Below, in pieces: positions 15,745-48,968 of a stretch of DNA of 64,000 nt. The position numbers and the translations under genes were made by a program. Within the stretch, counting starts at the first letter, position 1, and each line of letters begins with the position of its first letter. This DNA comes from Shinella lacus (GTDB taxonomy: Bacteria > Pseudomonadota > Alphaproteobacteria > Rhizobiales > Rhizobiaceae), in assembly GCF_010994755.1 (NCBI RefSeq), contig NZ_WHSB02000016.1, positions 1 to 64,000 of the forward strand. The letters run 5' to 3'. Below the pieces are notes generated by a model. The model saw nothing but the letters and a program-made list of their open reading frames with translations. It was not told where the DNA came from and made no database searches.

Positions 15745-15849
15745 ATCGACGTTTTGGGGACTTGCACAAGGTAGCTTATTTTACTATCGTTTTCTAGTCA
15801 GTATGAGAGACCAGTGACAATATTCATTTCGAGAGAGGAAACCCGGTAA

Positions 15850-21473: not shown

Positions 21474-21555
21474 GGTAGTTCTCCTTCGGTTCCATCGGGA
21501 CCGTTCCCGATGGCGGCAAAGGAGAGGGCTGATCTGCTGCGGTCAGCTCGGCGGA

Positions 21556-24641: not shown

Positions 24642-24785
24642 GATAGTCTCCGTCGGTTGGGGCCGCGCCTCTCGCGGCCTGACGGCGATCCCTTCCATCC
24701 GGCGAGCGGGCCGGAACCGCGGCGCTCGCGCCGCGGCCCAGCGCAGCGCCGGGCCGCCGGGGACAGGTTTTTTGCTTCGCGAGGA

Positions 24786-30487: not shown

Positions 30488-30593
30488 GGGAAACCTCATC
30501 GAGAGCGGGAAAGAGCCGACCGCCGGGCGCTCTCCAGGCCCGCCAGGTCACCCCTTCCCGGCCCCTCTCTCCCTCTCGGCGGCATGGGCGGCG

Positions 30594-30616
30594 GCGCCCG
30601 GCCCTCAGCCGGGCGC
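30594..30616 (-). terminator. terminator overlapping a stop codon
   Basis: GCGCCCGGC (30594-30602) and GCCGGGCGC (30608-30616) form a 9-bp stem; the 5-base loop contains the stop of the 30605-30916 gene. Confidence 0.55.
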
Positions 30617-30916: not shown

Positions 30917-30940
30917 GTTGCTCTCCTGAAAATGCAGAAA

Positions 30941-30970
30941 GGCCCGGCGCTCCTTGCGGAGCACCGGGCC
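30941..30970 (-). promoter_or_regulatory. leader/terminator hairpin with GNRA loop
   Basis: 30941-30953 pairs with 30958-30970 over 13 bp with one wobble. On the minus strand it has a GCAA tetraloop and is followed by TTTCTGCATTTTC. It ends 24 bases before the start of the 30605-30916 gene and 37 bases after the stop of the upstream gene. Confidence 0.7.
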
Positions 30971-31007
30971 TGGTTGGGAGGGAGGAAGGTGAATTGCGGG
31001 CAGTCGC

Positions 31008-31289
31008 CTACGGCTGCCAGAATGCGACAGAGTCGACGCGGGTGATCGCCAGAATGGGCTTGGCGCAGGCTGGCGACGGTTGCTCCGCGGTCCACCGGGA
31101 TGTAATGAACCGCCGGTCCGTCAGCGTTCGCGAATTGATCATCGCCGCTTGAACGGCGCCGGAAAGCTGTCGAGCTCCAGGCGCGTCGCGAGTGTCGTCG
31201 AGATAGAATGTTTCGCCGGGTCGGAGCGTCAAAGGCTTTGACACCAGCGATCCCTCCTTAAGCCTACTCTTTCTAACGGTCCTTTTCAT
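31008..31289 (-). CDS. small basic protein, function unknown
   Basis: A 93-residue protein with a basic N-terminus (MKRTVRKSRLKEG) followed by RPGETFYLDDTRDAPGARQL and a C-terminal strand-rich part. AAGGAGG lies six bases before the ATG at 31289. No family recognised; the basic start would allow nucleic-acid contact. Confidence 0.55.
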   Translation of the reverse strand: MKRTVRKSRLKEGSLVSKPLTLRPGETFYLDDTRDAPGARQLSGAVQAAMINSRTLTDRRFITSRWTAEQPSPACAKPILAITRVDSVAFWQP

Positions 31290-31475
31290 CGGATTCCTCC
31301 TTCTGGCAATAAGGTCACGCACGGGTCCGCACGGCATGCCGCGGCGGATACCGTGTTTGATCGATCGGATAGAACTTCTGGAAATGCGGCTGGATCACCG
31401 CTATCGGGACACCCGCGCATCATTGAGGTTCAGCTGCGCAAGCGAGAAACGCGGTCCAATGGCCGGATTGGCCGC

Positions 31476-31661
31476 CTAGCTATGCGTGTAGCCGTCGGCC
31501 TCTATACACAACCACATCCCGCACCAGGGGAGTGCAACGGCTCCGTCGGCAGCGGTGACGGGAATGGCAAGCTTCCTGAAAGCGCGATAGGAAAGGCCCT
31601 GATCGGCCTGTTGCCATTTCAGATGAATGGCGCGGCGTTGCTCCTTCGTGATGGGAAACAC
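31476..31661 (-). CDS. small conserved protein ending WCGMW...DGYTHS
   Basis: A 61-residue protein with a GTG start. AGAGGAGG is seven bases upstream. Its features are FPITKEQRRAIHLKW, LSYRAFRKLAIPV and PWCGMWLCIEADGYTHS; from memory, similar stand-alone proteins occur on proteobacterial plasmids. It is currently in frame with the broken end of the gene upstream, so a naive gene call merges the two. Confidence 0.65.
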   Translation of the reverse strand: MFPITKEQRRAIHLKWQQADQGLSYRAFRKLAIPVTAADGAVALPWCGMWLCIEADGYTHS

Positions 31662-31719
31662 GCGATGTCCTCCTCTGTTGTGGGCGCATCGGCGCCCATG
31701 ATGTTCAAACTGAGCACAG

Positions 31720-32639
31720 TCATTCCACGAGTTCGATTTCATCGGTGTCGAAGCCTTGGAGTTCCTCCGGGTCGAGGAGTGCGGGATCGAGATCTCATCC
31801 GTGCGTGCCGCTAAGATCGGCAGCCGCTGCTTATGAATTACGAGGCGCTGCATCTTCGGAAGCCCTGCTGCATCATCTGAGGCGCGGTCTGCGGATGTCA
31901 ATATGCCATCCTGCTCGAGGAGCTCGGCCGAGGGATCGACGGGATCTTCGGTCCCGATCAGACGCCAAAGAGCGCGCGCCGCGGCCGTGTCGCACTGCGG
32001 CTCGCCAGTGTCGATTCCGATGTCATAATATTCGGCCGAGGATCGATCAAACAGAGTGCCCATGCGATCATAGACCTCCGATATCCTTTCGATATCGGAG
32101 AGCTCGGTTGGAACCGTCTTGGCGATGTGAGCGTCGGCGAGCGCAGACAATGCGGCCTGGGTGCGCAAAAGGCGGTGGCCATCAACCCAGGCTAGGGCTG
32201 CATAGAACCGCCGTTTCGGCGTGCTGGTCGAGCGTTCCGCCAGGTTGGTGTCAATCTCGAACCGCATATCCTCCGCCAGGGCGCGTAGTTTCGCGGCAAT
32301 GGGAGGAACCGGCTCGTGGGCAGAATCGGCTTCCTCCGCGTCGTCCGGACCTACGGGCTCGGCAAAGCGTTCGGCCGCGGCACGATCCATGAATGCGAAA
32401 CCGCCCGGCGCGTTTTCCCAGGGACGGGAGTACCATCCCCCCTGCTTGCGCGCCTGATTTCGGAGTGCGCGGTATTCGGCCTGATCGATTCGGTCGTCAA
32501 CAACGCAAATGAAGATCGGGATGCCCCTCGACGTGTGCACATGCTCCGCGATGGTGAAGCGAGGGGCCGCCCTCGCACCGTACACAGGCGCGCCGACCAC
32601 GTTTTCGACGCGGGCGGAATTGGTTTTGTTCTGCATCAT
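31720..32639 (-). pseudogene. frameshifted plasmid gene, function unknown
   Basis: The product has FTIAEHVHTSRGIPIFICVV, QGGWYSRPWENAPGGFAF, and a helical middle with RSTSTPKRRFYAALAWVDGH. After DEISIP the reading frame runs into an unlikely Ser/Asn/Arg-rich stretch and on into the next gene. One base inserted in the G-run at 31783-31785 (plus strand) restores ALLDPEELQGFDTDEIELVE and a stop at 31720-31722, an acidic tail that looks genuine. GGAG precedes the start (ATG 32639 or 32636). A true mutation or a sequencing error are both possible. Confidence 0.6.
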
Positions 32640-32665
32640 GCTTCTCCATTAGTGCAGGCGTCTGC

Positions 32666-32692
32666 GCCGCCGGGCGCTATGTGCCCGGCGGC
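32666..32692 (-). promoter_or_regulatory. leader hairpin upstream of the frameshifted gene
   Basis: GCCGCCGGGC (32666-32675) and GCCCGGCGGC (32683-32692) form a perfect 10-bp stem with a 7-base loop, ending 26 bases before the start codon at 32639. Confidence 0.65.
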
Positions 32693-32817
32693 AGAGCAGG
32701 TCGGTGTTGACGTGATGAGAGAGCGGGATCTGCTATATGAAATCAGGCGACGCAGGCGCGGTCTCGACGGATTGTTTCAGGAAGGACAGGGTTCTCGTGC
32801 GCTCCCGAAATGTGGAG

Positions 32818-32848
32818 AGGCCCGGCGCTCCTTTCGGAGGACCGGACC
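32818..32848 (-). terminator. degenerate hairpin with GAAA loop
   Basis: On the minus strand a stem of about 14 positions (two wobbles, one mismatch) closes a GAAA tetraloop; sequence and layout match the hairpin at 30941-30970. It lies 45 bases after the stop of the 32894-33301 gene. The rest of 32640-32893 holds no gene I can support. Confidence 0.5.
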
Positions 32849-32893
32849 TGACAGGGAAAATGAAGATGAGGTGCGGGCGGCGGCCCGCTGCCG

Positions 32894-33301
32894 TCAGGCT
32901 TTCGCAGACGGACCTGTGTCGATGAAAACCTCGTCGCGATTGGCTTCGAGCAGCATCAGGATGCGGCCGCCGACCGCGACGCATTCATTGATCCAGCAAT
33001 GGTCAGCGGCGGAATGCCGGCCGAACCGCTTCGCCGGAACATAGATGATCGTGAAATGCGGATATTCACGACCATCCTGCCCGCGATGGATGGTCGGGCC
33101 TTCGACCGCGACGACGATGCCGCCCGTCCCATACGATGTGCGAACAGGCATGCCCGGCTGCACCAGAGCCGGGAGATCGGGCGCGCAGGGCGGCGTCAGG
33201 CGATATCGCCCGGGGTCATGTGCGCCGAGCTCGGCCGAGTAGAGCGAATGGGCAAGATGCAAGCCGGGCTGGCCGGGACGGGGTTTACGCCGATTTTGCA
33301 T
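32894..33301 (-). CDS. conserved plasmid protein, function unknown
   Basis: A 135-residue protein. The N-terminus is basic and Pro-rich (MQNRRKPRPGQPG). It is followed by a strand-rich domain with GMPVRTSYGTGGIVVAVEGP, FTIIYVPAKRFGRHS and GGRILMLLEANRDEVFID. AAGGAAGG lies five bases before the ATG at 33301. Its start overlaps the end of the upstream gene by 17 bases, suggesting a common transcript. No family recognised. Confidence 0.6.
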   Translation of the reverse strand: MQNRRKPRPGQPGLHLAHSLYSAELGAHDPGRYRLTPPCAPDLPALVQPGMPVRTSYGTGGIVVAVEGPTIHRGQDGREYPHFTIIYVPAKRFGRHSAADHCWINECVAVGGRILMLLEANRDEVFIDTGPSAKA

Positions 33302-33497
33302 CGTGGCCTTCCTTTCGGTTTCTGGTGGCGTTGCGGTACGGCGGGTCGTTCGAAACCTCGCCATCACGCAGAGGATCGAGGAAATTCGGAGATCCGAATC
33401 CCTTGTCGAAAAGCTGCTGCGCTTCGTCAGCATCCTCGGCGAGAACTTGCAGGGTCCCTTCGATGCGCCAGTCGATCAACCAGAGTTTCTTAGGCAT
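33285..33497 (-). CDS. small plasmid protein, function unknown
   Basis: A 70-residue protein beginning MPKKLWLIDWRIEGTLQVLA and containing DADEAQQLFDKGF; the tail is charged. GGGAGG is five bases before the ATG at 33497. It overlaps the methyltransferase gene by 8 bases and the next gene by 17, so three genes form a compact unit. Confidence 0.6.
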   Translation of the reverse strand: MPKKLWLIDWRIEGTLQVLAEDADEAQQLFDKGFGSPNFLDPLRDGEVSNDPPYRNATRNRKEGHDAKSA

Positions 33498-34272
33498 ATC
33501 CACCTCCCGCCGTCAGGGTGAGCATGCAGGTATTGACCGTCGTTCCCGACGAACGGAAAGAGCCGTCCGGAAGTGGTTCGATGGCTCCGCCGTTGTCGGC
33601 GACGAGATCGCAAAACGCTGCCGTCAGCTTGTTGGTTCTGAACAGCACACCGGCGGACATGATCGCGACCAGCCGGCCATTGGGCTTGAGGAACCTGAAA
33701 GCATGCATGACGTGACGGATGTCGTCCTGCCCGGCGAAGGGCGGGTTCATGACGACGCGGTCATAGGAAGCATCGGGCTGGATACGGAGGAAATCGGCCT
33801 GTTGCCCAGTGCAGAATGATGCCGCCGGCATGTGGAGATCTGCGATCCTGAGCGCCAGGCGAGCGCATCGCGTTGCGTCGATCTCGATTGTATGGACCTG
33901 TCCGCCGGCGGCGATTGCTTCCACGGCGATGTTCCCGAGCCCGGCGCTCGGTTCGAGGACCCGCATCTGCGGCCTGATGTCGGCGCGGTCGACCACATCG
34001 CCGGCAAGGGGTTGAGGCGTATCGAACTGGCCGAAGTCCTGTTTGGTGCGGGAATATTCGCCGGTAAGCAGGATCGGATCCAGCGCTTCGGCGGCATCCC
34101 CTTCGAAAATATGGGCCTTCGCGGAGCGGTTCCATTTTCCACCGGCGGCCTGAAGGACCTTGTCGATCTCGACATAGAGCTTGTGATCGAGCTGGTCGAC
34201 CAAGGATACCTTCGAGCCTTCGACGACGGCAGCGCCGAGAATCCTGAGTACGTTTGTCGCGATCTGCGGCAT
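33490..34272 (-). CDS. class I DNA methyltransferase-like protein (NPPF motif)
   Basis: A 260-residue SAM-dependent methyltransferase. SAM motif I is MRVLEPSAGLGNIAVEAI near residue 103, an acidic residue follows in VHTIEIDATRCARLALR, and the catalytic motif IV is YDRVVMNPPFAGQDD near 168-182. NPPF points to amino-group methylation such as N6-adenine. The N-terminal 85 residues (KLYVEIDKVLQAAGGKW) look like a small substrate-recognition part. AAGGA lies eight bases before the ATG. No partner endonuclease is adjacent, so it may be an orphan protecting incoming plasmid DNA. Confidence 0.78.
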   Translation of the reverse strand: MPQIATNVLRILGAAVVEGSKVSLVDQLDHKLYVEIDKVLQAAGGKWNRSAKAHIFEGDAAEALDPILLTGEYSRTKQDFGQFDTPQPLAGDVVDRADIRPQMRVLEPSAGLGNIAVEAIAAGGQVHTIEIDATRCARLALRIADLHMPAASFCTGQQADFLRIQPDASYDRVVMNPPFAGQDDIRHVMHAFRFLKPNGRLVAIMSAGVLFRTNKLTAAFCDLVADNGGAIEPLPDGSFRSSGTTVNTCMLTLTAGGGYA

Positions 34273-34385
34273 TGTGAAATTCCTTTTTTGTGGAGGGGAA
34301 AGCGAAGACGCCCGACCGCATCGGGGGAGAATCCGGCACCAGACAGGTGAGGCGTCGCGGTCGCCGGCGAGGGCGATACCTCGGG

Positions 34386-34592
34386 CTACGAGACGTCAAA
34401 GGCGGAAGGCGTTGGCAAGTTCGCGGCGTCGGTTCGATGCTCTGCGAGCATCGAGCGGTAAAAGCGCTTGCGCGCGAAGCGGAAGGCAGGGTCATGCCGA
34501 ATTCCGCGATCGATCTGGCAGGCAGCGGCGCGCACAACGGTGCGCCAGTTCGCATCCGCACGAAGCCGAAGGCGCGGATAGGGGAGGATCAT
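34386..34592 (-). CDS. possible small basic protein coupled to a PP-loop gene
   Basis: A 68-residue basic reading frame (RADANWRTVVRAAACQIDRG, then FRFARKRFYRSMLAEHR). It has no separate ribosome binding site, but its ATG overlaps the stop of the upstream PP-loop gene (ATGA), the usual mark of coupled translation. Composition is plausible for a real protein. If it is not real, 34273-34588 is a 316-base gene-free stretch. Confidence 0.4.
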   Translation of the reverse strand: MILPYPRLRLRADANWRTVVRAAACQIDRGIRHDPAFRFARKRFYRSMLAEHRTDAANLPTPSAFDVS

Positions 34593-35728
34593 TCATGGCG
34601 GTGGTCCGTGGAGCGCGCGGAGGTGAGCCCGACCGGCTGTGCGCTCTCTCCAACCTTCAGCCGGGCCGACCGGCCCGCCGCCCCCCTCTCTCTCGGCCCG
34701 CCAGCCGCCCCGCCCGCCGCCCCGTCATCCGGCATAGCGTGCCCACAATGCGCGCTGGCGGATGCCAGAAAGCGAGCGCGGTTGGCGTCGCCCCGCCGAA
34801 CATGGAAATCGTCATCGACGACGCCGTTGACACGCGCCCACTGGTTCCATGAAAAATTGCGCCCCAGCCCGACCGTGGTGTTCGAACTGGGGAAGCGGTC
34901 GGCGTTGCGCACGAGGTCCTCCCAGGACGCGCCGAACTCGATCTCATCGAACCGGCTATGCTTGCCGGTCAGCGCGTTGCGCTCAAGAAACAGCGCCTGC
35001 TCTAGAAGGTCCGGATGATGTGCGGCAAGCCAGAAAAGCTCCCAGATTTTGCTCGCCGGGCAGAAGAAGCAGGCCGACTTGATCGGCACAAATTCGGGGC
35101 CGAGAACCTCTGTGATGACGTCGATGCAATCCTCCCGCGACCACCCAAGGATCTGTAGAGGATATGCGAAGTCGAAATCGGCATCGGCCGCCGGGAGATT
35201 GCGTGAACGGCGCATGTCGGCGCGGCCGCAGTCATAGCCGATCAGCTTGACGATCCGCTTTCCTGTCTGCCGCGCCTCGATCCAGATCGGGTGCGGTGGC
35301 GCGGCGTTCGGGCCGGATCGCGATCCCTTCAACGCCTGATCCTGCGGCTTCTGCTTCCATTTTATCGAGCAGCTTTTCATGCCGAAGGCCAACGACGGCA
35401 GGGTCTCGTTTACGATGCAGTTGCCGTAGAGGTTGTCGTAGCCGGTCGATGCGAGAGGCACCTTCCGGCAGACGATGATCGGCGGCCAGCCCCATTCGGC
35501 CAGGATTGCGCCGATCCGGTCGAGATGGGCCATGGTTTCGGGCTTTTCGGCGGCAACGTCTGCGAAGGTGATGACGTGCGGCCGGAGGCCTGCGAGACGC
35601 AGGGCGATCAGCATTGCCGTCGAATCCACCCCGGCCCCAAAGCATACTGCGAGCAGGCGTCCGCTCAGCGCGCGCAAAAGGCGTTGCCGCCCGGCGGCTC
35701 GGAGCCGCGGGGTTTCGTGGGTCAACAT
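34589..35728 (-). CDS. PP-loop (PAPS-reductase-like) ATPase
   Basis: A 379-residue protein of the adenine-nucleotide alpha-hydrolase/PAPS reductase superfamily. The PP-loop is a variant, LAVCFGAGVDSTAML near residues 26-40 (G-A-G-V-D-S instead of S-G-G-K-D-S). VITFADVAAEKPET follows. A cysteine pair lies in KSACFFCPASK near 220. The last 70 residues are Gly/Ala/Arg-rich and look disordered. Stand-alone members are found on plasmids and phages; sulfur insertion or nucleotide modification is possible, but no partner enzyme is obvious. The ribosome binding site is weak. Confidence 0.75.
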   Translation of the reverse strand: MLTHETPRLRAAGRQRLLRALSGRLLAVCFGAGVDSTAMLIALRLAGLRPHVITFADVAAEKPETMAHLDRIGAILAEWGWPPIIVCRKVPLASTGYDNLYGNCIVNETLPSLAFGMKSCSIKWKQKPQDQALKGSRSGPNAAPPHPIWIEARQTGKRIVKLIGYDCGRADMRRSRNLPAADADFDFAYPLQILGWSREDCIDVITEVLGPEFVPIKSACFFCPASKIWELFWLAAHHPDLLEQALFLERNALTGKHSRFDEIEFGASWEDLVRNADRFPSSNTTVGLGRNFSWNQWARVNGVVDDDFHVRRGDANRARFLASASAHCGHAMPDDGAAGGAAGGPRERGAAGRSARLKVGESAQPVGLTSARSTDHRHE

Positions 35729-35833
35729 TGTGGGAGTCCGTTCAAAATTCAGTGGGGCCGCGGGGCGCGTCGTTCGGGCGACGGGAGCGTCGGCCAGCGT
35801 GCATCACGGGCACAGCCGACACGGCGGAATCTG

Positions 35834-36052
35834 TCAGGCGTAGCTGACGTTTGCCTCGGGATATTTCAGGAGGAACGCATCGACAGCTGCCTCAGCCTCC
35901 TCGGTGGTGGCCAGATCCACCGCCTCGTCGAGAAGGTCGCCATCCTCCGCCTGAACGGCTACGTCCCAGAATTCCGGGAAAAACGGATGCTCGGCGGTTT
36001 CCGCAGAACCGTCCGGTAGATTTCGCATCGGGAAAACCGTGATGTCGGTCAT
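35834..36052 (-). CDS. small acidic protein, function unknown
   Basis: A 72-residue, strongly acidic protein (DVAVQAEDGDLLDEAVDLAT, then EEAEAAVDAFLLKYPEANVS). AAAGGA is seven bases before the ATG. The charge would fit a DNA-mimic or partner-binding protein, but nothing else supports that. No family recognised. Confidence 0.55.
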   Translation of the reverse strand: MTDITVFPMRNLPDGSAETAEHPFFPEFWDVAVQAEDGDLLDEAVDLATTEEAEAAVDAFLLKYPEANVSYA

Positions 36053-36234
36053 CGTTGAATCCTTTCATGAAAAGTATGAACGGCGGGATATCCGGTCGCG
36101 GACATGACGCCGGTGGCAGATGCCACCGACTTTGTCACGGGAAGGCGCGCTCTCTTTACCTCAGCCGGGCCGCCCGGCCCGTAGCCGCCCTCTCCCTCGC
36201 GTCCGGATCTAGGGGGAGGAGCGCCGCCGTCGGA

Positions 36235-36879
36235 TTAGCCGAACCGACGACCGGACGCAGTGAAGGTGTAGGCATTGGCCACGATGGTCTCGTCGACCAT
36301 TTCGTCCGAGTTCAGCGCGTTGTATTCGCTTTCGAGCTGACGGTAGAGCCAACGGGCGAGATCCCGCAGAGCCTCGATGACCGTATCCTCGGCGTCAGCG
36401 GTCATGTCCTGATAGTTGAGACTTTCCCTCGTGACAGAGATCGCCATGCAATACTCGTGATAGTAGTTCCCGCAATGGCTGACATCGGCCCGAAGCTGGT
36501 AGAAGTTGCGGCGCTGGATCGCCCGCAGGCCGTCGGCAATCCCGTGCAGCGTCGTATCCTTCGGCGCATAGTCCCGGATCGCCCGGGGCGAGCCCTTTCG
36601 ATAGGAGTAGAGTGCCTGGAAAGACGCACCGTCTCCTTGAGACCAGAAGCCCGTGAAGTGTATTCTTGGCTCATCCCGTGTGCCGCCGCCAACAAGATGG
36701 ACCGGCGACGTTTTAAGGCGAACGCCAAGGCATTCGCATATTCGGCCGAAATCCTCGAAGACAAACTCGTACCACTCGTAGTCAAAGCCGCCCTCGCGGT
36801 ACCAGGTGCGAGCTTCCTCCTTCGCTTTTTCCGACAATTCCTCGAATTTGTAGACCATGGTTTCAATGACTTCGGGCAT
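36235..36879 (-). CDS. conserved plasmid protein, possible antitoxin-type annotation
   Basis: A 214-residue acidic protein, rich in aromatic residues: YKFEELSEKAKEEARTWYRE, FDYEWYEFVFEDFGRICECL, FTGFWSQGDGASFQALYSYR, and NYYHEYCMAISV. From memory, similar plasmid proteins are sometimes annotated as antitoxin of a stability system, without experimental basis that I know of. AGGAGG is five bases before the ATG at 36879. A GC hairpin lies 21 bases upstream even though no gene ends there; the next gene is divergent. Confidence 0.65.
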   Translation of the reverse strand: MPEVIETMVYKFEELSEKAKEEARTWYREGGFDYEWYEFVFEDFGRICECLGVRLKTSPVHLVGGGTRDEPRIHFTGFWSQGDGASFQALYSYRKGSPRAIRDYAPKDTTLHGIADGLRAIQRRNFYQLRADVSHCGNYYHEYCMAISVTRESLNYQDMTADAEDTVIEALRDLARWLYRQLESEYNALNSDEMVDETIVANAYTFTASGRRFG

Positions 36880-36900
36880 ACGAACCTCCTGAATTGCAAA

Positions 36901-36921
36901 AGCCCGGCGCGGGGCCGGGCT
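36901..36921 (-). promoter_or_regulatory. leader hairpin
   Basis: AGCCCGGC (36901-36908) and GCCGGGCT (36914-36921) form an 8-bp stem; on the minus strand it is followed by TTTT. It ends 21 bases before the start at 36879. The upstream gene is divergent, so there is no minus-strand transcript unit ending here to terminate. Confidence 0.7.
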
Positions 36922-37176
36922 CAAGGGGAATGGACAATGCCGGCGATTGCCGGCGGCTGGAATGGATGGCGGTCCATAGGGGGCAGCGGAGAAACGTGCC
37001 TCAGGCGTGAGCAGCCGCGCGCCACATCGCCAATCTCCTTTCCGCAGTGCGCTCGTGCTTGCGGGAAATCGCGCTGCGCCCATTATTCGGCCGGTCAGAT
37101 AAGCCGACGGTCGACGTTTTACTATACGTATTTTTGATAGTATAACGCCACCACGCCGCGCAGGGTTGGGACTGAG

Positions 37177-38382
37177 ATGGAGAGAGCGACAGTGCGAACA
37201 TTCACGATCGGCGATGAGGTGTTCTCGGAAAATTCCCCGGAATTCCGGGCGCTTCTTCCGCGTGCCCATGAAGAGCGGCTCCGCCCGATGTGCATGTGCA
37301 GGCAGCCGGCTGTTGCGATGTACATCGCCCGAATGGACGACCAGTATCTTGTAAAACGCATGCCACTATCCGGACGCGAGCACGACCCGGCCTGCCCTTC
37401 CTACGAACCGCCATACGAGCTTTCCGGCCTCGGGCCGCTCATCGGCAGCGCTATCCAGATCGACGCCAGCGGCAAAGCCGATCTGAAGCTCGATTTCTCC
37501 CTGACGAAACGGGGTCCGCGCACCGCGGCCGGTACGGCGGCGGAACAGTCGGAGCCAGCTATTCGCAGCGAGCCGCGCAAGCTGTCGCTCAAGGCGATGC
37601 TTCATTATCTCTGGGAGGCCGGCGAACTGACCGAATGGCGTTCCGTCTGGGCGGGTCGGCGCGGCTGGGGCCGCGTGCGCACCAGCGTAATCAACGCGGC
37701 GTCGCAGATGACGGCGAGAGGTGGACCGCTCAGCGACATGCTGTATGTGCCGGAGGTCTATCAGGCAGACGACAAGGACGGCATCGCCACCCGGCGCGCC
37801 ACGGCGCTGAAACCCGTACAGGCCGCAGGTTCGGGGCCGCGCAAGCTGATGATGATCGTCGCCGAGGTGAAGGAGTTCTCTCCGGCCCGCGAGGGACAGA
37901 GGATCGTGATGCGGCACATGCCCTTCCCCCTGATGATCGAGGATGGCGCGTGGCGGCGGCTGGCGGCCCGCTACGAAACCGAACTCGAACTGTGGCGTTC
38001 CAGCGAGGCGTTCCATCTGGTCGTCATCGCCACCTTCGGCATCTCGACCTCCGGCATCGCGTCGGTCGAAGAAGTCGCTTTGATGGTGGTGAACGAGCAC
38101 TGGCTACCCTTCGAGGACATCAACGAATTGCGCCTGCTGGAAAAGCTCAGCCACCTGAAGCGGAAGAGCGTGAAAGGCCTGCGCTTCAACCTTCCGCGCG
38201 ACGCGCCGATCGTGTCGGTGACGCTACCCGAGCAGAAGCCCGCGCCGGTGGCGATGTTCATCGTGCCGGCGAGTGCCGGCGACGAATACGAGCATGCGCT
38301 TGCCGACATGATCGAGACGAGACCGGAGATCACACCTTGGATCTGGCGGGTCGGCGATGGCGAGATCCCCCGAATTCCCTGA
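37177..38382 (+). CDS. DUF1173 family protein
   Basis: A 401-residue protein of DUF1173, common on alphaproteobacterial plasmids. Landmarks: the N-terminal cysteine motif RPMCMCRQPAVAMYIA, a second Cys-His region GREHDPACPSYEPP, LSLKAMLHYLWEAGELTEW, and MMIVAEVKEFSPAREGQRIV. The cysteine clusters could bind a metal. The C-terminal part has an alpha/beta look with IVSVTLPEQKPAPVAMFIVP. It is one of the few plus-strand genes here. Function unknown. Confidence 0.75.
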   Translation: MERATVRTFTIGDEVFSENSPEFRALLPRAHEERLRPMCMCRQPAVAMYIARMDDQYLVKRMPLSGREHDPACPSYEPPYELSGLGPLIGSAIQIDASGKADLKLDFSLTKRGPRTAAGTAAEQSEPAIRSEPRKLSLKAMLHYLWEAGELTEWRSVWAGRRGWGRVRTSVINAASQMTARGGPLSDMLYVPEVYQADDKDGIATRRATALKPVQAAGSGPRKLMMIVAEVKEFSPAREGQRIVMRHMPFPLMIEDGAWRRLAARYETELELWRSSEAFHLVVIATFGISTSGIASVEEVALMVVNEHWLPFEDINELRLLEKLSHLKRKSVKGLRFNLPRDAPIVSVTLPEQKPAPVAMFIVPASAGDEYEHALADMIETRPEITPWIWRVGDGEIPRIP

Positions 38383-38474
38383 TCGTGGACTTCCCTGCGT
38401 AGGCCGTTGACAGGTTGCCGCGAATAAGAACAGCTGCCGGGAGACAGTCATCTGCCACATTCAGCCGGAGCATC

Positions 38475-38684
38475 ATGAAGCCTGAGAAAAAGCCGTTCGT
38501 CGTCGAGTTCAAGAATCGGCGACGCCTCTCCCGGAAAGAAACGTCGATCTGGGGGCGCATCGACCTGAAGGCCGCCAGCGACGTGGTCGAGGTCGAAGAG
38601 ATGGGCACCGAAGCTGCTTCGATGGCCCACGGCCAGTCGCCGGAATCCGAGGCGACACTGACCCCTGCCGGAATCAGCGCCTGA
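38475..38684 (+). CDS. small basic protein, function unknown
   Basis: A 69-residue protein with a basic front (MKPEKKPFVVEFKNRRRLSR, then KETSIWGRIDL) and an acidic, disordered tail. GGAG is four bases before the ATG at 38475. It follows the DUF1173 gene by 92 bases. The MKP-E-KKPFVVE-F-K-RR-R pattern looks conserved, but I cannot assign a function. Confidence 0.6.
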   Translation: MKPEKKPFVVEFKNRRRLSRKETSIWGRIDLKAASDVVEVEEMGTEAASMAHGQSPESEATLTPAGISA

Positions 38685-38713
38685 TCGCGTCATAGACTGA
38701 CGAAAACCGTGCA

Positions 38714-39691
38714 TCAGGATTTTCGGGCGATGAGGTTCTCGCTGGCGAGTGCTTCGGCCGCAACGTCCCGTCGGCGGCCGGCGACCGACGCCATGACGGT
38801 TTCGAGAAATTCCTCGGGTTCGCCATCCCGATATGGCCCGTATTCGGACCAGTCCAAAGCACCTACGACAGCGGGAATGAAATCGAAATCGAAGGTAAAT
38901 CCGCCCTCCTCCAATGCATCCGAGAGATCGGTGTACGCTTGCTCTGCAAGAGATACGATCGCCAGGACATGACTCCGCATCGCCAGCCAGCCGGTCGCAT
39001 CCCACAATTCGGACATCCGGATAACACCATGGGGAACCGGACGGCGATCCTCGTGAAGGCCACGGAAATAGAGCATGGCCTCCCAGATGCAGAGAGCCGT
39101 CTCCATCTCGCCAACGGTAAATGAACGAGGGGCGACGACTGGAAAACCGTCTGGCAGCGCAGGCAGCGAGACCGGCGGCACGAGCGCACGATCCTGCAAA
39201 CGAAACCGCTTCAGCAGCTCCTCGCTTGTCGCATGATGGATGCCTTTACCGGTGATGAGCGAAACGCTGGCCCCGTAGGTCTCCAGCCGCTGTGAAGGAT
39301 GATTCATCCATTGGATCACCGTGACCTCCGGCAGGCTCGGCGAGCGCGCAACAATATCATGCACGATGAATGGCCACGGAAACTCGTTTAGATCGATTTC
39401 GGCAGCGACATCATTACCATCAGGCGAGGTTGGCAACAGCGCGAGAATGCGGCTGCCGATGAAGGCATTGAGTGCGCTGTCTGCCTGTGGCGCCGACGCT
39501 CCAAAGGCGTCAAGAAGCGCCTGCCGTTTCATATTGATCGGGTTGATCGGGCCGACGTCGGTGAACAGGACAAGCCCGGCTTCGGTCTCGCTGCATTCGA
39601 GAACGTGGGTCAGCACGAGCTTTTCGAGCGGCGTGATATCGGCAAGCGGAATTGGCGGATAGGTGTAAATTCGGGTTTCGAGATTGTTCAT
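38714..39691 (-). CDS. plasmid protein, function unknown
   Basis: A 325-residue, mostly helical acidic protein. Recognisable stretches are LADITPLEKLVLTHVLECSE, FGASAPQADSALNAFIGSRI and VGEMETALCIWEAMLYFRGL. AAAGG lies upstream of the ATG, and a hairpin ends 26 bases before it. It is the downstream neighbour of the GHKL ATPase gene and may work with it. No family recognised. Confidence 0.6.
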   Translation of the reverse strand: MNNLETRIYTYPPIPLADITPLEKLVLTHVLECSETEAGLVLFTDVGPINPINMKRQALLDAFGASAPQADSALNAFIGSRILALLPTSPDGNDVAAEIDLNEFPWPFIVHDIVARSPSLPEVTVIQWMNHPSQRLETYGASVSLITGKGIHHATSEELLKRFRLQDRALVPPVSLPALPDGFPVVAPRSFTVGEMETALCIWEAMLYFRGLHEDRRPVPHGVIRMSELWDATGWLAMRSHVLAIVSLAEQAYTDLSDALEEGGFTFDFDFIPAVVGALDWSEYGPYRDGEPEEFLETVMASVAGRRRDVAAEALASENLIARKS

Positions 39692-39717
39692 GGGACTGCC
39701 TTTCAGTCGGTACGACA

Positions 39718-39739
39718 AACCCGGCGCGATGGCCGGGTT
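39718..39739 (-). promoter_or_regulatory. leader/terminator hairpin
   Basis: AACCCGGC (39718-39725) and GCCGGGTT (39732-39739) form an 8-bp stem, 23 bases after the GHKL gene stop and 26 bases before the next start. Confidence 0.65.
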
Positions 39740-39762
39740 GATGGGTGTTTTTTGATTGGGGG

Positions 39763-41430
39763 CTAGGTCGCCGCGTGCGGCTCGGGCGACCCACCGACAG
39801 GTGGGGAAAGACCTTCGACCGAGATCTTTCGATGCTCGATCCTGATCAGAATCGCGTCTTCGCGAGGCACGCGCCAAACCAGTTCGCGTTCGACGACACG
39901 CACGATCGCATTGAGGTCGGCAGCGTGCGCCGTTTCCAGCAAGGCGATGCTCAGATCCTCCGCCTCGTCGGAGAACCATCGCTTCTGGTCTTCGTAGGAG
40001 CCGGCTTCCGCATCGTCCGCGGGAGAATAGAGAGCATCGACAAGGAAGGTGGTCAGATTTGACGGCGTGATAGACGACTGCATGGTGACGAGGATCTCCG
40101 CCTCGTCCAGGGAACCGTAATCTACCCCTTGAACGATCAGGTCGGTGTCCAGCACCCACTCCGTCTTTTCTGCGCCCGAAACGTCCAGAACCAGTTCGAG
40201 GCGATCCGGCCGCCCGTTTGCGGCGAACAGATCGAAGGGCTCTTTTTCTTCGACCGCGCCGCCAACTTCCATCTTGTAGGATCTGATCTGAATCCAACGT
40301 AGCCCGTCGTACCAGCTGTATCCGCTAAACGCGCTGTGAGGCTCGAAGAGCTGGGGAGGACGGTCCAGTCGCGCGATTGCGCGGGCAAACGTCTGCTCTT
40401 CGAGCGGACCCTCGCCTTCGAAGACAAGCGCCCCTGCCTCGACCGGCTCGGGCACGAGAACAACAATCCGGTCCGTATCCGCGCACGAAGGCGTAAATGG
40501 TCGCAGGAGTGGGACGGCCTCTTTCAGGTCGATGCCAAGAGTCCGGCCGAAGTGATAGTCCTTGAACTTCAAGCTGTGCGCACCGCCGACCGCGACCATG
40601 CGAAAATATAGGCGCGTGATCTCTTTCATGAGAGCGGCATACATCGCATCGCGCACAACGTCCTTGCGGGCCGGAAGCACGAGCTTCAGGTGGGCACAAT
40701 CGACCACATCGATGCGTGCGAAATAGCTCCGATGCCAGGATTGCTGAAGCTCCGGCAAGGGAATTTTCAGCGTCACGCCATGGAAATTGACGTTCTCATC
40801 GTGGTAGCGGGAGAGGTCCCGACCAAACACGCCGATCCGGATTCCTTGCCATTCCTCGGTATGATCCGCGCCGTCGAGGAAGTCCGAGGATGGCATTTCC
40901 TCGCCGTTGAAGATGACGGGGATAGGGAAAAAGCGAGCGGCGCGGCGGACCGCACCCGCAAAATGCTCACCCTTCTTTTCCGGGAAGATCACCGTCAACC
41001 CATGATGCCCCTCTGGACCGGCATCGACCGTGACCGGTTCCTTGCCGTGAAAGGCATCCGGTGTCGCCGCGATCGCCCAGGTCTGGTCCGTGCCTTTCTG
41101 GCCGGCGACAATCTTCGCTCCGCGATTGGCGAGAGAAAAGAAGCCCATGCCGGCGGCGTCTTCAGACTGGGACAAAGCCTTCGACCATTCGCTCTTTCCA
41201 AGAGAAAAGAGCGAGCGGGGATCGTCGAGGCCCGCGCCGTCATCGGCGATGCGGATTGCCGGCCCGAGCCGCGGATCCTCAATCTGGTCGATCAAGACCT
41301 TCGCGGCGCCAGCGCGCCGTGCGTTCTGGAGCAGTTCGTTGAGGATATCGTCGATCGAGGCGTTGAAAAGGCGGCCGACCTTTTCGATCGCCTCCGCGGC
41401 GACCTGTGCGTGAAAGGAAAAGCTGGTCAT
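39763..41430 (-). CDS. GHKL-type ATPase (Hsp90/MutL-like ATP-binding domain)
   Basis: A 555-residue protein with an N-terminal GHKL ATP-binding domain: ILNELLQNARRAGAAKVLID (N box) near residues 29-48, IRIADDGAGLDDPRSLFSLG (G1 box) near 60-79, and DAAGMGFFSLANRGAKIVAG (G2) near 91-110. The C-terminal 350 residues are unlike Hsp90 or MutL as far as I can see. GGAGA is seven bases before the ATG at 41430. GHKL ATPases drive conformational cycles; several anti-phage and plasmid systems use them. The substrate is unknown. Confidence 0.75.
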   Translation of the reverse strand: MTSFSFHAQVAAEAIEKVGRLFNASIDDILNELLQNARRAGAAKVLIDQIEDPRLGPAIRIADDGAGLDDPRSLFSLGKSEWSKALSQSEDAAGMGFFSLANRGAKIVAGQKGTDQTWAIAATPDAFHGKEPVTVDAGPEGHHGLTVIFPEKKGEHFAGAVRRAARFFPIPVIFNGEEMPSSDFLDGADHTEEWQGIRIGVFGRDLSRYHDENVNFHGVTLKIPLPELQQSWHRSYFARIDVVDCAHLKLVLPARKDVVRDAMYAALMKEITRLYFRMVAVGGAHSLKFKDYHFGRTLGIDLKEAVPLLRPFTPSCADTDRIVVLVPEPVEAGALVFEGEGPLEEQTFARAIARLDRPPQLFEPHSAFSGYSWYDGLRWIQIRSYKMEVGGAVEEKEPFDLFAANGRPDRLELVLDVSGAEKTEWVLDTDLIVQGVDYGSLDEAEILVTMQSSITPSNLTTFLVDALYSPADDAEAGSYEDQKRWFSDEAEDLSIALLETAHAADLNAIVRVVERELVWRVPREDAILIRIEHRKISVEGLSPPVGGSPEPHAAT

Positions 41431-41453
41431 TGCAAATTCTCCAGAATGGCGAA

Positions 41454-41475
41454 CGCCCGGCACGGTGGCCGGGCG
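41454..41475 (-). promoter_or_regulatory. leader/terminator hairpin
   Basis: CGCCCGGC (41454-41461) and GCCGGGCG (41468-41475) form an 8-bp stem, 43 bases after the DUF932 gene stop and 23 bases before the GHKL start. Confidence 0.65.
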
Positions 41476-41518
41476 CTGATGGGATAGAGGGGGGAGTGTG
41501 TGCGGGAGCGGAACGTGG

Positions 41519-42709
41519 TCAGGCCGCGCTTTCGAGCAGCTTGCGCGCTTTCCCCTCCAGTTCCAGGCGCGTGTCCTGATGCGCTTTTCCGCGCGCGAGG
41601 GCGGTGATGCCCTGCACGAAATCGAAAATGGATTCCGGCGGGCGCCCTTCCTCGGCAAGCACCGTGTCGATGATCTTGCCGGTTTCCGCCTTCGAGAAAC
41701 CACGCTTGCGCAGGAAACTGGACCGGTCCTCTTCGTTGCGGGCGACGATCTTCTCGCGCGCACCTCGGATGCCGTTGATAAACGGCGCGGGCGATGAGTT
41801 CGCGAAATTCATCAGCGCCGGGGCGGCCTCGTGCGCGAAGCGCTTTGCGGCGAACTTCGAGTGCCGAATGGTGATTTCCTCGAAATTTTCGCAGCCCCAA
41901 AGGTTGCGATTCATGCACACAGCCCGCAGGTAGAAGCTCGCGATTCCGAGGGTTTTCGAGCCGACCTCCGAGTTCCAGGCATAGAAGCCGCGGAAGTAAA
42001 GGTCCGGCTCGCCGTTCGGCAGGCGGCCCGCCTCAATGGGGTGCGTGTCGTCCACCAAGAACAGGAAGACGTCCCTGTCGCTGGCATAGAGCGTCGTCGT
42101 ATCCTTGGTGACGTCGACGAAAGGATTGTGGGTCATGGTCGACCAGTCGAGGACGCCAGGCACCTTCCAGATCGTGTCGCCGGTCCCGTTCCCGGCGATG
42201 CTCATCACCGCCGCAACGAGTTCCTTATCCCAGATACGACCGTATTCGGGGCCGGTCACCGCGCGCAACTCGACGCGACCGTCGTCCATTTCCAAGGTCT
42301 TGACCAGTTCCGCGCTGTGGTTCAGCAGCCCATGTTGGAGATTGATCGCAGCAAGCGGCGCGGGAAGCTGGCGCATGTAGCTCGCCGGCGCGCCGACAAG
42401 GCTGCACAATTGGCCGTAGCTCCAATGGGTCGGTGCCAGCGGCACGCGGCTGCCGGGAACCACAAGGGAAAGGCGCTCGGCGTTGTCGCGCGTCGCCTCG
42501 ACGCGGATCTCTGCGCTTTCGACAGTGCGTACACGGGCGCGTTCCGTGCGCTCGCTGACCGCGCGATGGAGGTCGGAGAGCGAGAGATAACGCTCGTCGT
42601 CCGGGCGAGAGAACCATTCGGACGATACCCGGCCGATGCGTTCGCCGCGCGAGATGTCGACCTTGAAGCCGGAGGATACGGCGGGCGGGGTGGAAATCAT
42701 GGTGTTCAT
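41519..42709 (-). CDS. DUF932 (phage/plasmid-like) protein
   Basis: A 396-residue protein of the DUF932 family found on many plasmids and phages. Landmarks: LSYGQL-like THWSYGQLCSLVGAPASYMR near 95, VTGPEYGRIWDKELVAAVM near 157, FVDVTKDTTTLYASDRDVFL near 197, and FYLRAVCMNRNLWGCENFEE near 262. GGAGA lies six bases before the ATG. The family's role is not established. It sits among DNA-handling genes. Confidence 0.8.
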   Translation of the reverse strand: MNTMISTPPAVSSGFKVDISRGERIGRVSSEWFSRPDDERYLSLSDLHRAVSERTERARVRTVESAEIRVEATRDNAERLSLVVPGSRVPLAPTHWSYGQLCSLVGAPASYMRQLPAPLAAINLQHGLLNHSAELVKTLEMDDGRVELRAVTGPEYGRIWDKELVAAVMSIAGNGTGDTIWKVPGVLDWSTMTHNPFVDVTKDTTTLYASDRDVFLFLVDDTHPIEAGRLPNGEPDLYFRGFYAWNSEVGSKTLGIASFYLRAVCMNRNLWGCENFEEITIRHSKFAAKRFAHEAAPALMNFANSSPAPFINGIRGAREKIVARNEEDRSSFLRKRGFSKAETGKIIDTVLAEEGRPPESIFDFVQGITALARGKAHQDTRLELEGKARKLLESAA

Positions 42710-42732
42710 AAGTCGTCTCCTGAAACGTGAAA

Positions 42733-42752
42733 GCCCGGCGCGAGGGCCGGGT
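42733..42752 (-). promoter_or_regulatory. leader/terminator hairpin
   Basis: CCCGGC (42734-42739) and GCCGGG (42746-42751) form the core stem, 24 bases after the stop of the next gene upstream and 23 bases before the DUF932 start. Confidence 0.6.
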
Positions 42753-42776
42753 CGGTGGAAAGAAAAGGGATGAAGC

Positions 42777-43047
42777 TCAGCGCGCTGGCGCGGGGTGAAT
42801 GCGGTCGTCGTCAAACTCGACATTTTCGATGACGGGTTCCGTTCCGTCCGCTGTAACGCGATCGATATAGATGATGGTGCCTTCGCGCCGTTGATCGATC
42901 TCGATGTGTTCCGGCTGATCGGATGCCTCCATGGCCACGGTGGCGGCTGCCTTGGCTTTCTCGATCGCCTCGGCATCGCTATCGGCCTCGAGAGAACCCG
43001 TCATAGGCGCTGAGCCAGAATCCGATTTCGACTTTGTATTGCGTCAT
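42777..43047 (-). pseudogene. frameshifted small plasmid gene
   Basis: The gene starts at 43047 (MTQYKVEIGFWLSAYDGF), overlapping the upstream stop as ATGA, with GGGAGA nearby. It then meets a stop at 42979-42981. One base removed in the GAGAGA run near 42990-42996 continues into LEADSDAEAIEKAKAAATVA and on to FDDDRIHPAPAR. Both halves look like one acidic protein of about 90 residues. A shorter 75-residue frame from ATG 43004 covers only the second half. Mutation or sequencing error are both possible. Confidence 0.6.
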
Positions 43048-43466
43048 AGGCGCTCTCCCTCGGCAGGATCGTCAGGATCGCGAGCGCCTGCGAGGATCGC
43101 CTCGCCGCGCGCGACGGCAGAGATGGCGCGCTCGATCCAGTCGTCCGAGGCCGCCCGGCCGGCCTGGACGTCAGCGAGGAGCAGCTTCAGCAGGCCAAGC
43201 AGGATTTCGAAGTGCCTGACCTTTCGCTCGACCGTTTCTGAAAAGTGCGAGGGAACAGGGATCGCCTGGCCGGAATATGCGGCATCGACTCCGTTCCATA
43301 TGCCGGAAATGTAATTCTCGCCGGCGTCTTCGTAGCTGAGCTTCTCGCCGGACCAGTCATCGTCCTCGATGGCTTGCCGGCAGGCGAGCGCAGCGCTGTC
43401 GGCCTGGTAGGTGCGATGACGGTAAGCTGGCAGGCGGTAGCTTGTTTCAATGGTATAGTCGGGCAT
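43044..43466 (-). CDS. conserved plasmid protein, function unknown
   Basis: A 140-residue acidic protein. The N-terminal half has YTIETSYRLPAYRHRTYQAD and a Trp-containing acidic stretch; the C-terminal half is a long helix (KVRHFEILLGLLKLLLADVQ) with a charged tail. AGGAG is six bases before the ATG at 43466. It overlaps the next gene as ATGA. No family recognised. Confidence 0.6.
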   Translation of the reverse strand: MPDYTIETSYRLPAYRHRTYQADSAALACRQAIEDDDWSGEKLSYEDAGENYISGIWNGVDAAYSGQAIPVPSHFSETVERKVRHFEILLGLLKLLLADVQAGRAASDDWIERAISAVARGEAILAGARDPDDPAEGERL

Positions 43467-43487
43467 CTCAAGCTCCTGAAACGAAAG

Positions 43488-43519
43488 AGCCCGGTCGCCG
43501 CTATCGCGCCAACCGGGCT
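43488..43519 (-). promoter_or_regulatory. leader/terminator hairpin
   Basis: AGCCCGGT (43488-43495) and ACCGGGCT (43512-43519) form an 8-bp stem with a 16-base loop; CTTTCGTTTC follows on the minus strand. It ends 21 bases before the start at 43466. Confidence 0.65.
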
Positions 43520-43593
43520 GGTGAAGTGGGAATGGATCGGTGGGTCGCAGCTCACTGCGGAACACCCGCGCCCCGCAGTCGTGCGAGTGGGCT

Positions 43594-44007
43594 TCAATCG
43601 ATTGCCTGGAAGATCTCGGAGGCCTCGGGATGATCCGCCGAATAAGCGTAGAGGTGCTCATAACCTTCGACGAGTCGATCGGACTGAAACTGGAATGACA
43701 GGTGCGAGAAGGCGAACATCGTGGCGATGATGCCGGCGGCCTCCGCGGTGACCTCGCCCTGGAAGCATGTGACGTCACCGGTAATCCGGAAACGTGTCCT
43801 GGATCTCGGTGCGAGGAAAAGCGGCTTGCCCTGATGCTCGTAGAAATCCCAGGAACCGCCACGATAGTCGAGAGGGCTAAGCCTTTCCATCCAGGCATAG
43901 ACGGCATTCTCGGCGACGATCAGGTGCGAACGGCCGAAGAGGGCCGGCAGGAAATCCTGACGGGCTTCGTCGGGGACGATCACAGCGCGCGGGGTATCGT
44001 TCAACAT
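43594..44007 (-). CDS. ArdB/KlcA-family antirestriction protein
   Basis: A 137-residue protein matching ArdB/KlcA: FLPALFGRSHLIVAENAVYA, the MERLSPLDYRGGSWDFYEHQ core, VTAEAAGIIATMFAFSHLSF, and a C-terminal HPEASEIFQAID. These proteins relieve type I restriction of incoming DNA and are typical of conjugative plasmids. GGAGGG is seven bases before the ATG at 44007, which overlaps the upstream stop by one base. Its presence supports an establishment role for this block. Confidence 0.85.
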   Translation of the reverse strand: MLNDTPRAVIVPDEARQDFLPALFGRSHLIVAENAVYAWMERLSPLDYRGGSWDFYEHQGKPLFLAPRSRTRFRITGDVTCFQGEVTAEAAGIIATMFAFSHLSFQFQSDRLVEGYEHLYAYSADHPEASEIFQAID

Positions 44008-44480
44008 CACGCCACCCTCCCTTCGACAGCATCCGCGCAGATTTCCTCGACGCAAACCTCCTCGAGGCGGATATTGATGTGACCGCTCTCTTCGATCCAA
44101 CGACGGGCGTCGGCCATGTTTGCCGCAAGGTAGAGCAGGATGCTGTGGGCGCCGTATTCCTGAAGAACACGAACTTCGCCGGCGGCGGGGCGACGGACAA
44201 CCTCGAACGAGAGATCGCTATCGAGTGGAAAGGCTTCGCGGGCGGCGATCGCAGCATCGAGGTCCATTTGAAACTCGCCCGGTAGGAGCGTAATCGCGCC
44301 TGCCGTCGACCAGATGATGCTGGAACGAGGCGGCGTGCACCGCACGAGCCAACCAGTGCCATTGCATTTCTTCCAGGCGGCGAGGGCATCAGCGTCCTCG
44401 TCGGATGGCCTCGGAACCGAATTGCGAAAGGCGATCATTGCGCCGATCGGCGCGCGTTCGTAGATGGTCATGACGGACAT
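44007..44480 (-). CDS. plasmid protein, function unknown
   Basis: A 157-residue soluble protein; MTIYERAPIGAMIAFRNSVP, KCNGTGWLVRCTPPRSSIIW and an acidic C-terminus (IRLEEVCVEEICADAVEGRV) are the visible features. GGAGA is five bases before the ATG at 44480. It is translationally coupled to the antirestriction gene (TGATG) and may assist it. No family recognised. Confidence 0.6.
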   Translation of the reverse strand: MSVMTIYERAPIGAMIAFRNSVPRPSDEDADALAAWKKCNGTGWLVRCTPPRSSIIWSTAGAITLLPGEFQMDLDAAIAAREAFPLDSDLSFEVVRRPAAGEVRVLQEYGAHSILLYLAANMADARRWIEESGHINIRLEEVCVEEICADAVEGRVA

Positions 44481-44509
44481 GTTCGTCTCCGAGTTTCGAG
44501 AAACAGAAA

Positions 44510-44531
44510 GGCCCGGCGCGACGGCCGGGCC
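44510..44531 (-). promoter_or_regulatory. leader/terminator hairpin
   Basis: GGCCCGGC (44510-44517) and GCCGGGCC (44524-44531) form an 8-bp stem followed on the minus strand by TTTCTGTTTCTC. It lies 28 bases after the ParB-like gene stop and 29 bases before the next start. Confidence 0.7.
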
Positions 44532-44559
44532 CTGGATCGATCGTTGTTGGTCCGAGGAT

Positions 44560-46704: not shown

Positions 46705-46804
46705 GTCATTTCTCCGCGGCGGACCGGCCGGAGCCTCTCTCCAGCCACCTCAATCCGCCACGAACGCCCCTTCCCCCCTCTCCCTCTTTTGCCGGCCACC
46801 GCCC

Positions 46805-48531: not shown

Positions 48532-48968
48532 GGTGCGGCTCCATGGCGAGCGGCCGGAGCCTCTCTCCAGCCTCTCAACCCGCCGCCGCCGTTCCGCCCC
48601 CCTCTCCCTCTCCCGCCGCCGATCCCCTCTCCCCATTCCCGGCCGCCCGCGCCCCCGTTCCCGGTTCGGAAAGTGGTGTGTCACGCGCGAGCGCGCGAAG
48701 AAATTCAGGACAAATTCAACGGGATGTCCTATCCTCCGCGCCGAAGCGGTACGTGCCGCTTTGGGGCGTGGAAACCCCTGTGAACGGTTGGTGCTGGCCG
48801 ATACAGCATCACCTCCTTGACCTTTGGGTCGGGGGGCCTGACGCTATGTCCAGGTTCTCCGAACTAAAAGCTCAGGGCCGTTTCACACGGTTTCCAACCC
48901 CCCGATCATGGGGTCATTGAGCATTGAACGGCGGGGACGTACCGCCGAAGTTGCTTCAGGAGAAACCG
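48532..48968. other. gene-free stretch between divergent genes
   Basis: These 437 bases hold a GC-rich, pyrimidine-biased segment (48540-48665) followed by more ordinary sequence. I see no convincing reading frame, tRNA or repeat. It must contain the promoters for the minus-strand PP-loop pair and the plus-strand gene at 48969. Confidence 0.5.

Follow-up and report, generated by a model that had tools for sequence, protein, structure and literature searches.

GC-rich hairpins before uncoupled genes of a Shinella lacus plasmid module are candidate leaders of the genes that follow

The window, that is, the whole stretch of DNA analyzed here, is the first 64 kb of contig C9 (140,822 bases) in the 7.04 Mb genome of Shinella lacus, and the entries nearest to it in the plasmid collection are Shinella and Agrobacterium plasmids (loci L001-L004). 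It contains a series of GC-rich hairpins placed shortly before start codons in a mainly minus-strand gene module on this conjugative plasmid of a soil bacterium. The first part of the module runs in the order PAPS-reductase type, ParB-like, hp157, ArdB-type antirestriction, hp140, hp43, DUF932-type, GHKL-like ATPase, and hp325. Past a plus-strand DUF1173 gene and one small gene, it continues with further small genes, a methyltransferase, a strawberry-notch helicase, a toprim gene, and a DUF2493 gene. The name DUF932 is that of the annotators, the protein of the window having no Pfam match at E ≤ 0.001, and the label GHKL-like is given on a weak Pfam HATPase_c_3 match below the cut-off.

An initial annotation of this DNA had described eight hairpins at a nearly fixed 21-29 nucleotides (nt) before minus-strand start codons. 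All eight are present and fold, with −12.5 to −30.8 kcal/mol, stems of 6 to 13 GC-rich pairs, and a short loop in 8/8. The recomputed gaps to the start codons (24, 26, 21, 26, 23, 23, 21, and 29 nt, in the order listed below) agree with the annotation to the nucleotide.

30941..30970, minus strand: type 1 leader hairpin of hp103 (gene 30605-30916), with the U tail TTTCTGCATTTT; conserved in L002, L003, L004, L007, and L011
32666..32692, minus strand: leader hairpin of hp31476 (gene 31476-32639), tail-less, not type 1
36901..36921, minus strand: type 1 leader hairpin of hp215 (gene 36235-36879)
39718..39739, minus strand: type 1 leader hairpin of hp325 (gene 38714-39691)
41454..41475, minus strand: type 1 leader hairpin of the GHKL-like ATPase gene (39763-41430)
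42733..42752, minus strand: type 1 leader hairpin of the DUF932-type gene (41519-42709)
43488..43519, minus strand: type 1 leader hairpin of hp140 (gene 43044-43466)
44510..44531, minus strand: type 1 leader hairpin of hp157 (gene 44007-44480)

Seven of the eight follow one design, called type 1 here: a G-poor stretch, a GC hairpin, in most cases a U-rich tail, a ribosome-binding site, and ATG. The core sequence that had been described as common to all eight is found in these seven, those at 30941 and 43488 reading CCCGGT...CCGGG. The hairpin at 32666 has no U tail and carries the inverted core GCCGCCGGGC...GCCCGGCGGC. As had been pointed out, no minus-strand gene precedes the hairpin at 36901; the only gene upstream is the divergent DUF1173 gene.

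The relation of the hairpins to their neighbors was examined in orthologues of the downstream genes. The leaders of 40 orthologues of the DUF932-type gene, sorted by a pattern flag (raised in 19 of the 22 type 2 leaders) and by reading by eye, comprise 12 of type 1, 22 of type 2, five of a third type, and one unclear case. Type 2 is a leader that ends in the start codon and has a nested GACGGG-CCCGTC stem with a GAGAG-type loop, and the third type (L037, L228, and L230-L232) is a GGAGGCATGTC...GACATGCCTCC hairpin with A-rich sequence after it and no U tail. Five of the 12 type 1 leaders have an imperfect stem that is missed by the strict finder, and in L006 and L011 the type 1 stem is imperfect or displaced. 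Type 1 is kept at the DUF932-type gene when the upstream gene is hp43, ArdB, ParB, any of three called open reading frames (ORFs; 81, 132, and 219 aa), or a gene on the opposite strand.

A match to hp157 is found in 64/297 family genomes, and the loci used are mostly 34-41% identical. A hairpin of ≤ −13 kcal/mol at 18-36 nt before the start is present in 29/33 hp157 leaders, compared with 2.05% of 1,320 dinucleotide shuffles, and in 11/17 DUF932 leaders preselected as type 1, compared with 1.6% of 680 shuffles. Both sets exclude the near-identical L001, L002, and L250, and the hp157 set also excludes L003 and L012 (start annotated elsewhere or gene absent). The finder detects a hairpin in 30 of the 33 hp157 leaders with gaps of 20-34 nt; the narrow spacing of the initial annotation thus holds within the window and widens among the orthologues. 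ParB is matched upstream in 22/29 hp157 loci and is absent from the 1.5 kb examined at the other seven, where the GC inverted repeat and the U-rich tail are still visible in the alignment, three of them outside the range of the finder.

Orthologues of hp325 were found in 1/150 order genomes (its own) and those of hp103 in 3/297 family genomes (its own included), too few for a deep linkage test. The Neorhizobium stretch (L008) has three type 1 leaders. In an Agrobacterium leguminum plasmid (L060), type 1 hairpins precede DUF932 and hp325, and none is found at the annotated start of the GHKL gene. No type 1 leader precedes the relatives of the GHKL-like gene that lie on plasmids of Yoonia, Novosphingobium (pNL1), Sphingobium, and Roseomonas; the gene on pNL1 has a strong tail-less hairpin. 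For the genes that could be tested, the sequence comparison shows that the hairpin goes with the downstream gene. Because this linkage persists when the upstream neighbor changes, the hairpins are best read as leaders rather than gene-end terminators. The proposal of a repeated leader element instead of simple terminators is thus borne out by the linkage, by the divergent-gene case at 36901, and by the retention of the hairpin in divergent orthologues.

Placement was analyzed by counting hairpins of ≤ −11 kcal/mol at 17-34 nt before starts, in classes of distance to the upstream same-strand gene. The module set consists of the window and nine related plasmid stretches, and the genome sample of 18 stretches, each 20 kb long. 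Among genes of the 50-150 nt class, a hairpin is present in 48/62 module genes and 5/39 genome-sample genes, figures to be read with the facts that the plasmids are related and not independent, that the module was delimited after the hairpins had been seen, and that starts were annotated or set by hand in the module and came from a simple gene caller with a ribosome-site filter in the genome sample. The window alone gives 7/8 in this class against the same 5/39 (Fisher 9e-5). Only 2/31 abutting or overlapping module genes have a hairpin, and the other module classes give 7/13 (divergent), 8/16 (>150 nt), and 0/2 (21-49 nt). As a working rule, a leader hairpin is usual for module genes that are uncoupled.

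Outside the module, the remainder of contig C9 gives 0/8 in the 50-150 nt class and 0/48 over all classes. Non-module genes of the plasmid stretches give 0/13 (50-150 nt), 8/18 (>150 nt), and 4/37 (divergent), the eight hairpins in the >150 nt class belonging to seven DUF2493 genes and one DUF736 gene. The virB genes (0/34) are a mismatched control for the 50-150 nt class, since all of them abut or sit within 49 nt of a neighbor. A loose pattern, CCCGGY-N3-16-RCCGGG-N9-18-GGAG, which was picked after the elements had been seen, has 22 exact matches in the genome, compared with 11 for the pattern read backwards. Five of the 22 are the minus-strand elements of the module itself within 12.6 kb, an accumulation beyond chance (binomial 5e-10), and a sixth is one of the same hairpins read on the plus strand.

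Further hairpins of the window that bear on the interpretation are the following.

24661..24679, minus strand: tail-less hairpin, 19 nt ahead of the DUF2493 (YAcAr) gene (23703-24641)
21492..21513, minus strand: tail-less hairpin, 18 nt ahead of the ATG at 21473; DUF736-type by likeness to the L004 leader
48929..48947, plus strand: tail-less hairpin, 21 nt ahead of a TTG-start ORF (48969-49265)
32808..32857, minus strand: decayed second copy of the hp103 leader (family D10, 82% identical over 50 nt)

The last of these accounts for the second hairpin that the initial annotation had seen next to 32666: the hairpin at about 32820-32848 is part of this decayed copy of the 30941 leader, and the two copies bracket a two-gene block. 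Since hp103 directly follows hp9122 in L002, L004, L007, and L011, the block 31008-32639 looks inserted between the two leader copies, possibly by insertion at the leader.

The flanks of the stem should be noted. In the 33 leaders with a finder-detected hairpin, T makes up 42-91% at each of the ten positions after the stem, and G makes up ≤ 24% at each of the 14 positions before it. A stem followed by a U tract is the signature of an intrinsic terminator, and for this reason we favor a leaky or controlled attenuator that would also cap the translation initiation region, a reading to which we give about even chances. According to this reading, the type 1 hairpin would be a cis-acting leader of the following gene that acts in the RNA. 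A polymerase arriving from the upstream gene or promoter would make a C-rich, G-poor stretch, the GC hairpin, about 10 nt of U-rich RNA, and then the ribosome-binding site. Because this order is that of an intrinsic terminator, a share of the transcripts should end at the hairpin, the attenuation being leaky or relieved by some factor. Read-through transcripts would keep the hairpin just upstream of the ribosome landing site, where it would mark off the initiation region of each uncoupled cistron. The sequence itself shows the parts and their order, their position ahead of uncoupled genes, their scarcity where genes abut, and, for the genes tested, the link to the downstream gene; termination, its extent, any control, and an effect on stability or translation are what we infer from this arrangement. 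Pairing of the C-rich upstream stretch with the Shine-Dalgarno sequence was checked by eye and dropped.

The terminator score of d'Aubenton-Carafa is positive in 21/25 hp157 orthologues in the best register and in 19/25 in the register of the finder; the corresponding values for the window are 4/8 and 2/8. The claim that each hairpin looks like an intrinsic terminator was therefore too strong: half of the window hairpins score below zero even in the best register, a simple scan for a stem and T residues finds 1/8 (44508-44533), and that at 32666 has no U tail. These results weigh against the attenuator, as do several others. The DUF932-type gene elsewhere has tail-less leaders of types 2 and 3 at about the same place, and tail-less hairpins lie 18-21 nt before the DUF2493 gene, the DUF736 gene, and the TTG-start ORF; from these it follows that termination may be less important than having a hairpin close to the ribosome-binding site. 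Expression would also fall steeply along a region with many attenuators if read-through were not high. No type 1 leader was seen in the stretches of pSymA (L010) and S. chiapasense (L005), both of which have the DUF2493-type hairpin. The search for compensatory changes that the initial annotation had proposed gives a mixed picture in the hp157 alignment (A2, without L250 and L260). The covariation score and the number of double-change cells exceed those of all 500 shuffles, but the numbers of pairs with a double change (2) and of further pair types (9) do not. Furthermore, a slide by −1 equals the alignment in covariation score, a second stem class being misaligned by one column.

The close rival is a 5' stabilizer or insulator, which is possible though less probable than the attenuator. 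The hairpin would shield the mRNA from decay after upstream processing or initiation and separate the ribosome landing site, with weak or no termination. The gap of about 20-30 nt sets the stem just upstream of the ribosome footprint, and the U-rich stretch could aid ribosome binding via protein S1. The failure of 4/8 hairpins in the terminator score, the very different leaders, some tail-less, at the same place before the same gene elsewhere, and the tail-less hairpins before DUF2493, DUF736, and the TTG-start ORF all fit an insulator. However, the U-rich tail directly after the stem in the profiled leaders would be needless for it, and in hp157 leaders the Shine-Dalgarno sequence is predicted to be no more open (mean 0.24, n = 25) than in chromosomal controls (0.28, n = 54). 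Among the three roles first suggested, the attenuator fits best as far as sequence can tell and the stabilizer second, whereas a promoter in single-stranded DNA is not supported. Such promoters or priming sites, used as the strand enters the recipient, would agree with a position in the leading region, if TGCGCCCT at 15672 is the nick site. But stems of 6-13 pairs are too small for −35 and −10 boxes, a sigma-70 scan of 30000-47500 shows no excess (4 found, 3.2 expected), the conserved U tail is left unexplained, and the same design is present in phage DNA. We thus regard this role as very unlikely.

Ordinary terminators of the upstream genes, with a separate promoter for the next gene, would account for the terminator-like stem and tail in some copies and for the position of most hairpins 14-75 nt past the upstream stop codon in the window and its near relatives. 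This explanation is nevertheless improbable and is largely refuted by the linkage test, in which the downstream gene keeps its hairpin next to a different neighbor. The hairpin also occurs where the upstream gene is divergent, and the 21-29 nt between hairpin and start give no room for a promoter. It is just as hard to believe as the single-strand role that the hairpins are a dispersed palindromic repeat that spreads and is tolerated at this place. The similar cores in seven copies and the decayed second copy of one leader are what such a repeat would leave, but the placement is tied to uncoupled starts, the stem sequences vary between genes and between orthologues, and few matches to the loose pattern lie in other parts of the genome.

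The type 1 arrangement resembles intrinsic terminators and leader attenuators in its GC stem, adjacent U-rich tail, and unstructured 5' flank. It differs from them in that it lies about 20-34 nt before the starts of many successive cistrons and that half of the window copies score below zero. In rpsU-dnaG, an intercistronic partial terminator precedes a coding gene; a terminator-like hairpin close ahead of the next gene's ribosome-binding site is common to both, though that is a single case and the arrangement here is a module-wide rule. The Frpo/ssi folds imitate a promoter in double-stranded form, −35 and −10 regions included (PMC11541004). They may share the leading-region context with type 1, whose stems are too short for promoter boxes. 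ESAS elements of cluster K mycobacteriophages are inverted repeats just upstream of the translation starts of some genes, the function of which was unknown to the authors, and they comprise 17 bp half-sites with a common consensus and a 13 bp repeat, GGGATAGGAGCCC, at the start site (PMC3203893). Both are inverted repeats before the starts of a subset of genes in a mobile element and are kept within gene families, whereas type 1 stems vary more between genes, are followed by a U-rich tail, and occur in other hosts. For comparison, the window leaders show TTTCAGGAG or similar, no search for GGGATAGGAGCCC having been made. A literature search, judged by its result lists, showed no description of a type 1 or type 2 leader.

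A strict version of the design is found in 82 viral stretches, compared with 29 when GGAAG replaces AGGAG and 41 when AGGAG is placed 42-50 nt on. At 55 of 80 loci (80 of the 82 stretches were used, near-duplicates included), an ORF of ≥ 40 codons starts 3-11 nt after AGGAG. In the genome itself, a prophage-like stretch with a head maturation protease gene (L062, G000:C13:656501-661500) has two neighboring genes with type 1-like leaders, neither of which has a Pfam or PHROG match. The presence of the arrangement in viral stretches and in this prophage-like stretch means that it is not private to the plasmid.

Two genes of the module carry type 2 leaders instead.

46702..46768, minus strand: type 2 leader including the start codon, ParB-like gene (44560-46704); 51.3 bits, model R1
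48529..48593, minus strand: type 2 leader including the start codon, PAPS-reductase-type gene (47380-48531); 64.6 bits, model R1

The covariance model R1 was built from 15 leaders, in which 7/15 pairs show changes on both sides and 96% of the cells are paired. It matches 22/289 genomes of the class sample and 27/249 of the phylum sample, five of the latter lying outside Alphaproteobacteria with weak matches (E 7.6e-6 to 0.009). An alignment of 36 matches, which is fitted to the model and includes five with E > 0.1, shows both-side changes at 12/15 pairs and pairing in 94.5% of the cells, all slid controls being far lower. At 27/30 type 2 loci of the class (L286-L315), a start codon and an ORF come right after the motif; judged by the first residues only, the genes look DUF932-type, ArdC-like, ParB-like, or PAPS-type. 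The predicted Shine-Dalgarno openness at type 2 loci averages 0.10 (n = 26) versus 0.28 for 54 chromosomal genes, and that of the two leaders in the window is 0.44-0.47. Rfam gives no match in the window at gathering thresholds, none at E ≤ 1 over 30500-46800, and in 11 relatives three matches that are all below threshold (E 0.11 to 0.78); the type 2 pattern occurs in one stretch among viral contigs. Type 2 is a well-supported candidate for a structured RNA across Alphaproteobacteria that has no Rfam match. A third match in the genome, at G000:C40:488185-488253 (minus strand, 29.3 bits), lies off the plasmid contig.

The conjugation genes lie at the following positions.

11007-15626, minus strand: MobA/MobL relaxase gene
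16357-18273, plus strand: coupling-protein gene

Between them, at 15672, is the sole TGCGCCCT of the window, a putative nick-site motif. Since 3.9 occurrences are expected by chance, it is only the place of the motif that suggests this reading. Nicking at this site would put the module in the leading region, with the entering strand as the template, a position that does not make the hairpins single-strand promoters. A broader proposal can be made tentatively, and we hold it to be rather unlikely. Alphaproteobacterial conjugative elements may carry a dedicated layer of RNA control in a leading-region island, with one of a few interchangeable structured leaders on most uncoupled cistrons. Type 1 would attenuate the inner cistrons, and type 2, folding over the Shine-Dalgarno sequence, would gate ParB-like, DUF932, ArdC-like, and PAPS-reductase-type genes. 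Jointly they would time the expression of establishment genes after entry and their later shut-down, perhaps via a single common regulator by which the type 2 fold is recognized. If so, genes that the plasmid may need on arrival would be controlled cistron by cistron by leader RNA structure, beyond promoters, and editing one stem or U tail while reading expression and transfer would provide a simple handle. The clear gene set and class-wide spread of type 2 mean that a ligand or protein can be sought. Predictors of terminators and operons should allow for terminator-like hairpins that are part of the gene downstream.

A few other sequences of the region should be mentioned. Two DUF736 genes on a Sphingobium plasmid (L058; 11323 and 18110) have the same 70 nt of sequence upstream, in which a hairpin may form. 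TTTTACTAT occurs three times in the window versus 0.01 expected, at 15779-15787 (plus) and 15922-15930 (minus) between the relaxase and coupling-protein genes and at 37117-37125 (plus) ahead of DUF1173, and may be a shared operator. Purine-rich stretches on the minus strand (e.g., GGGAGAGGGGGG) lie at 34641-34739 and 36145-36199 and, by eye, also at about 30520-30600 and 46720-46800; they recur ahead of ParB, strawberry-notch, and small genes, close to type 2-like folds.

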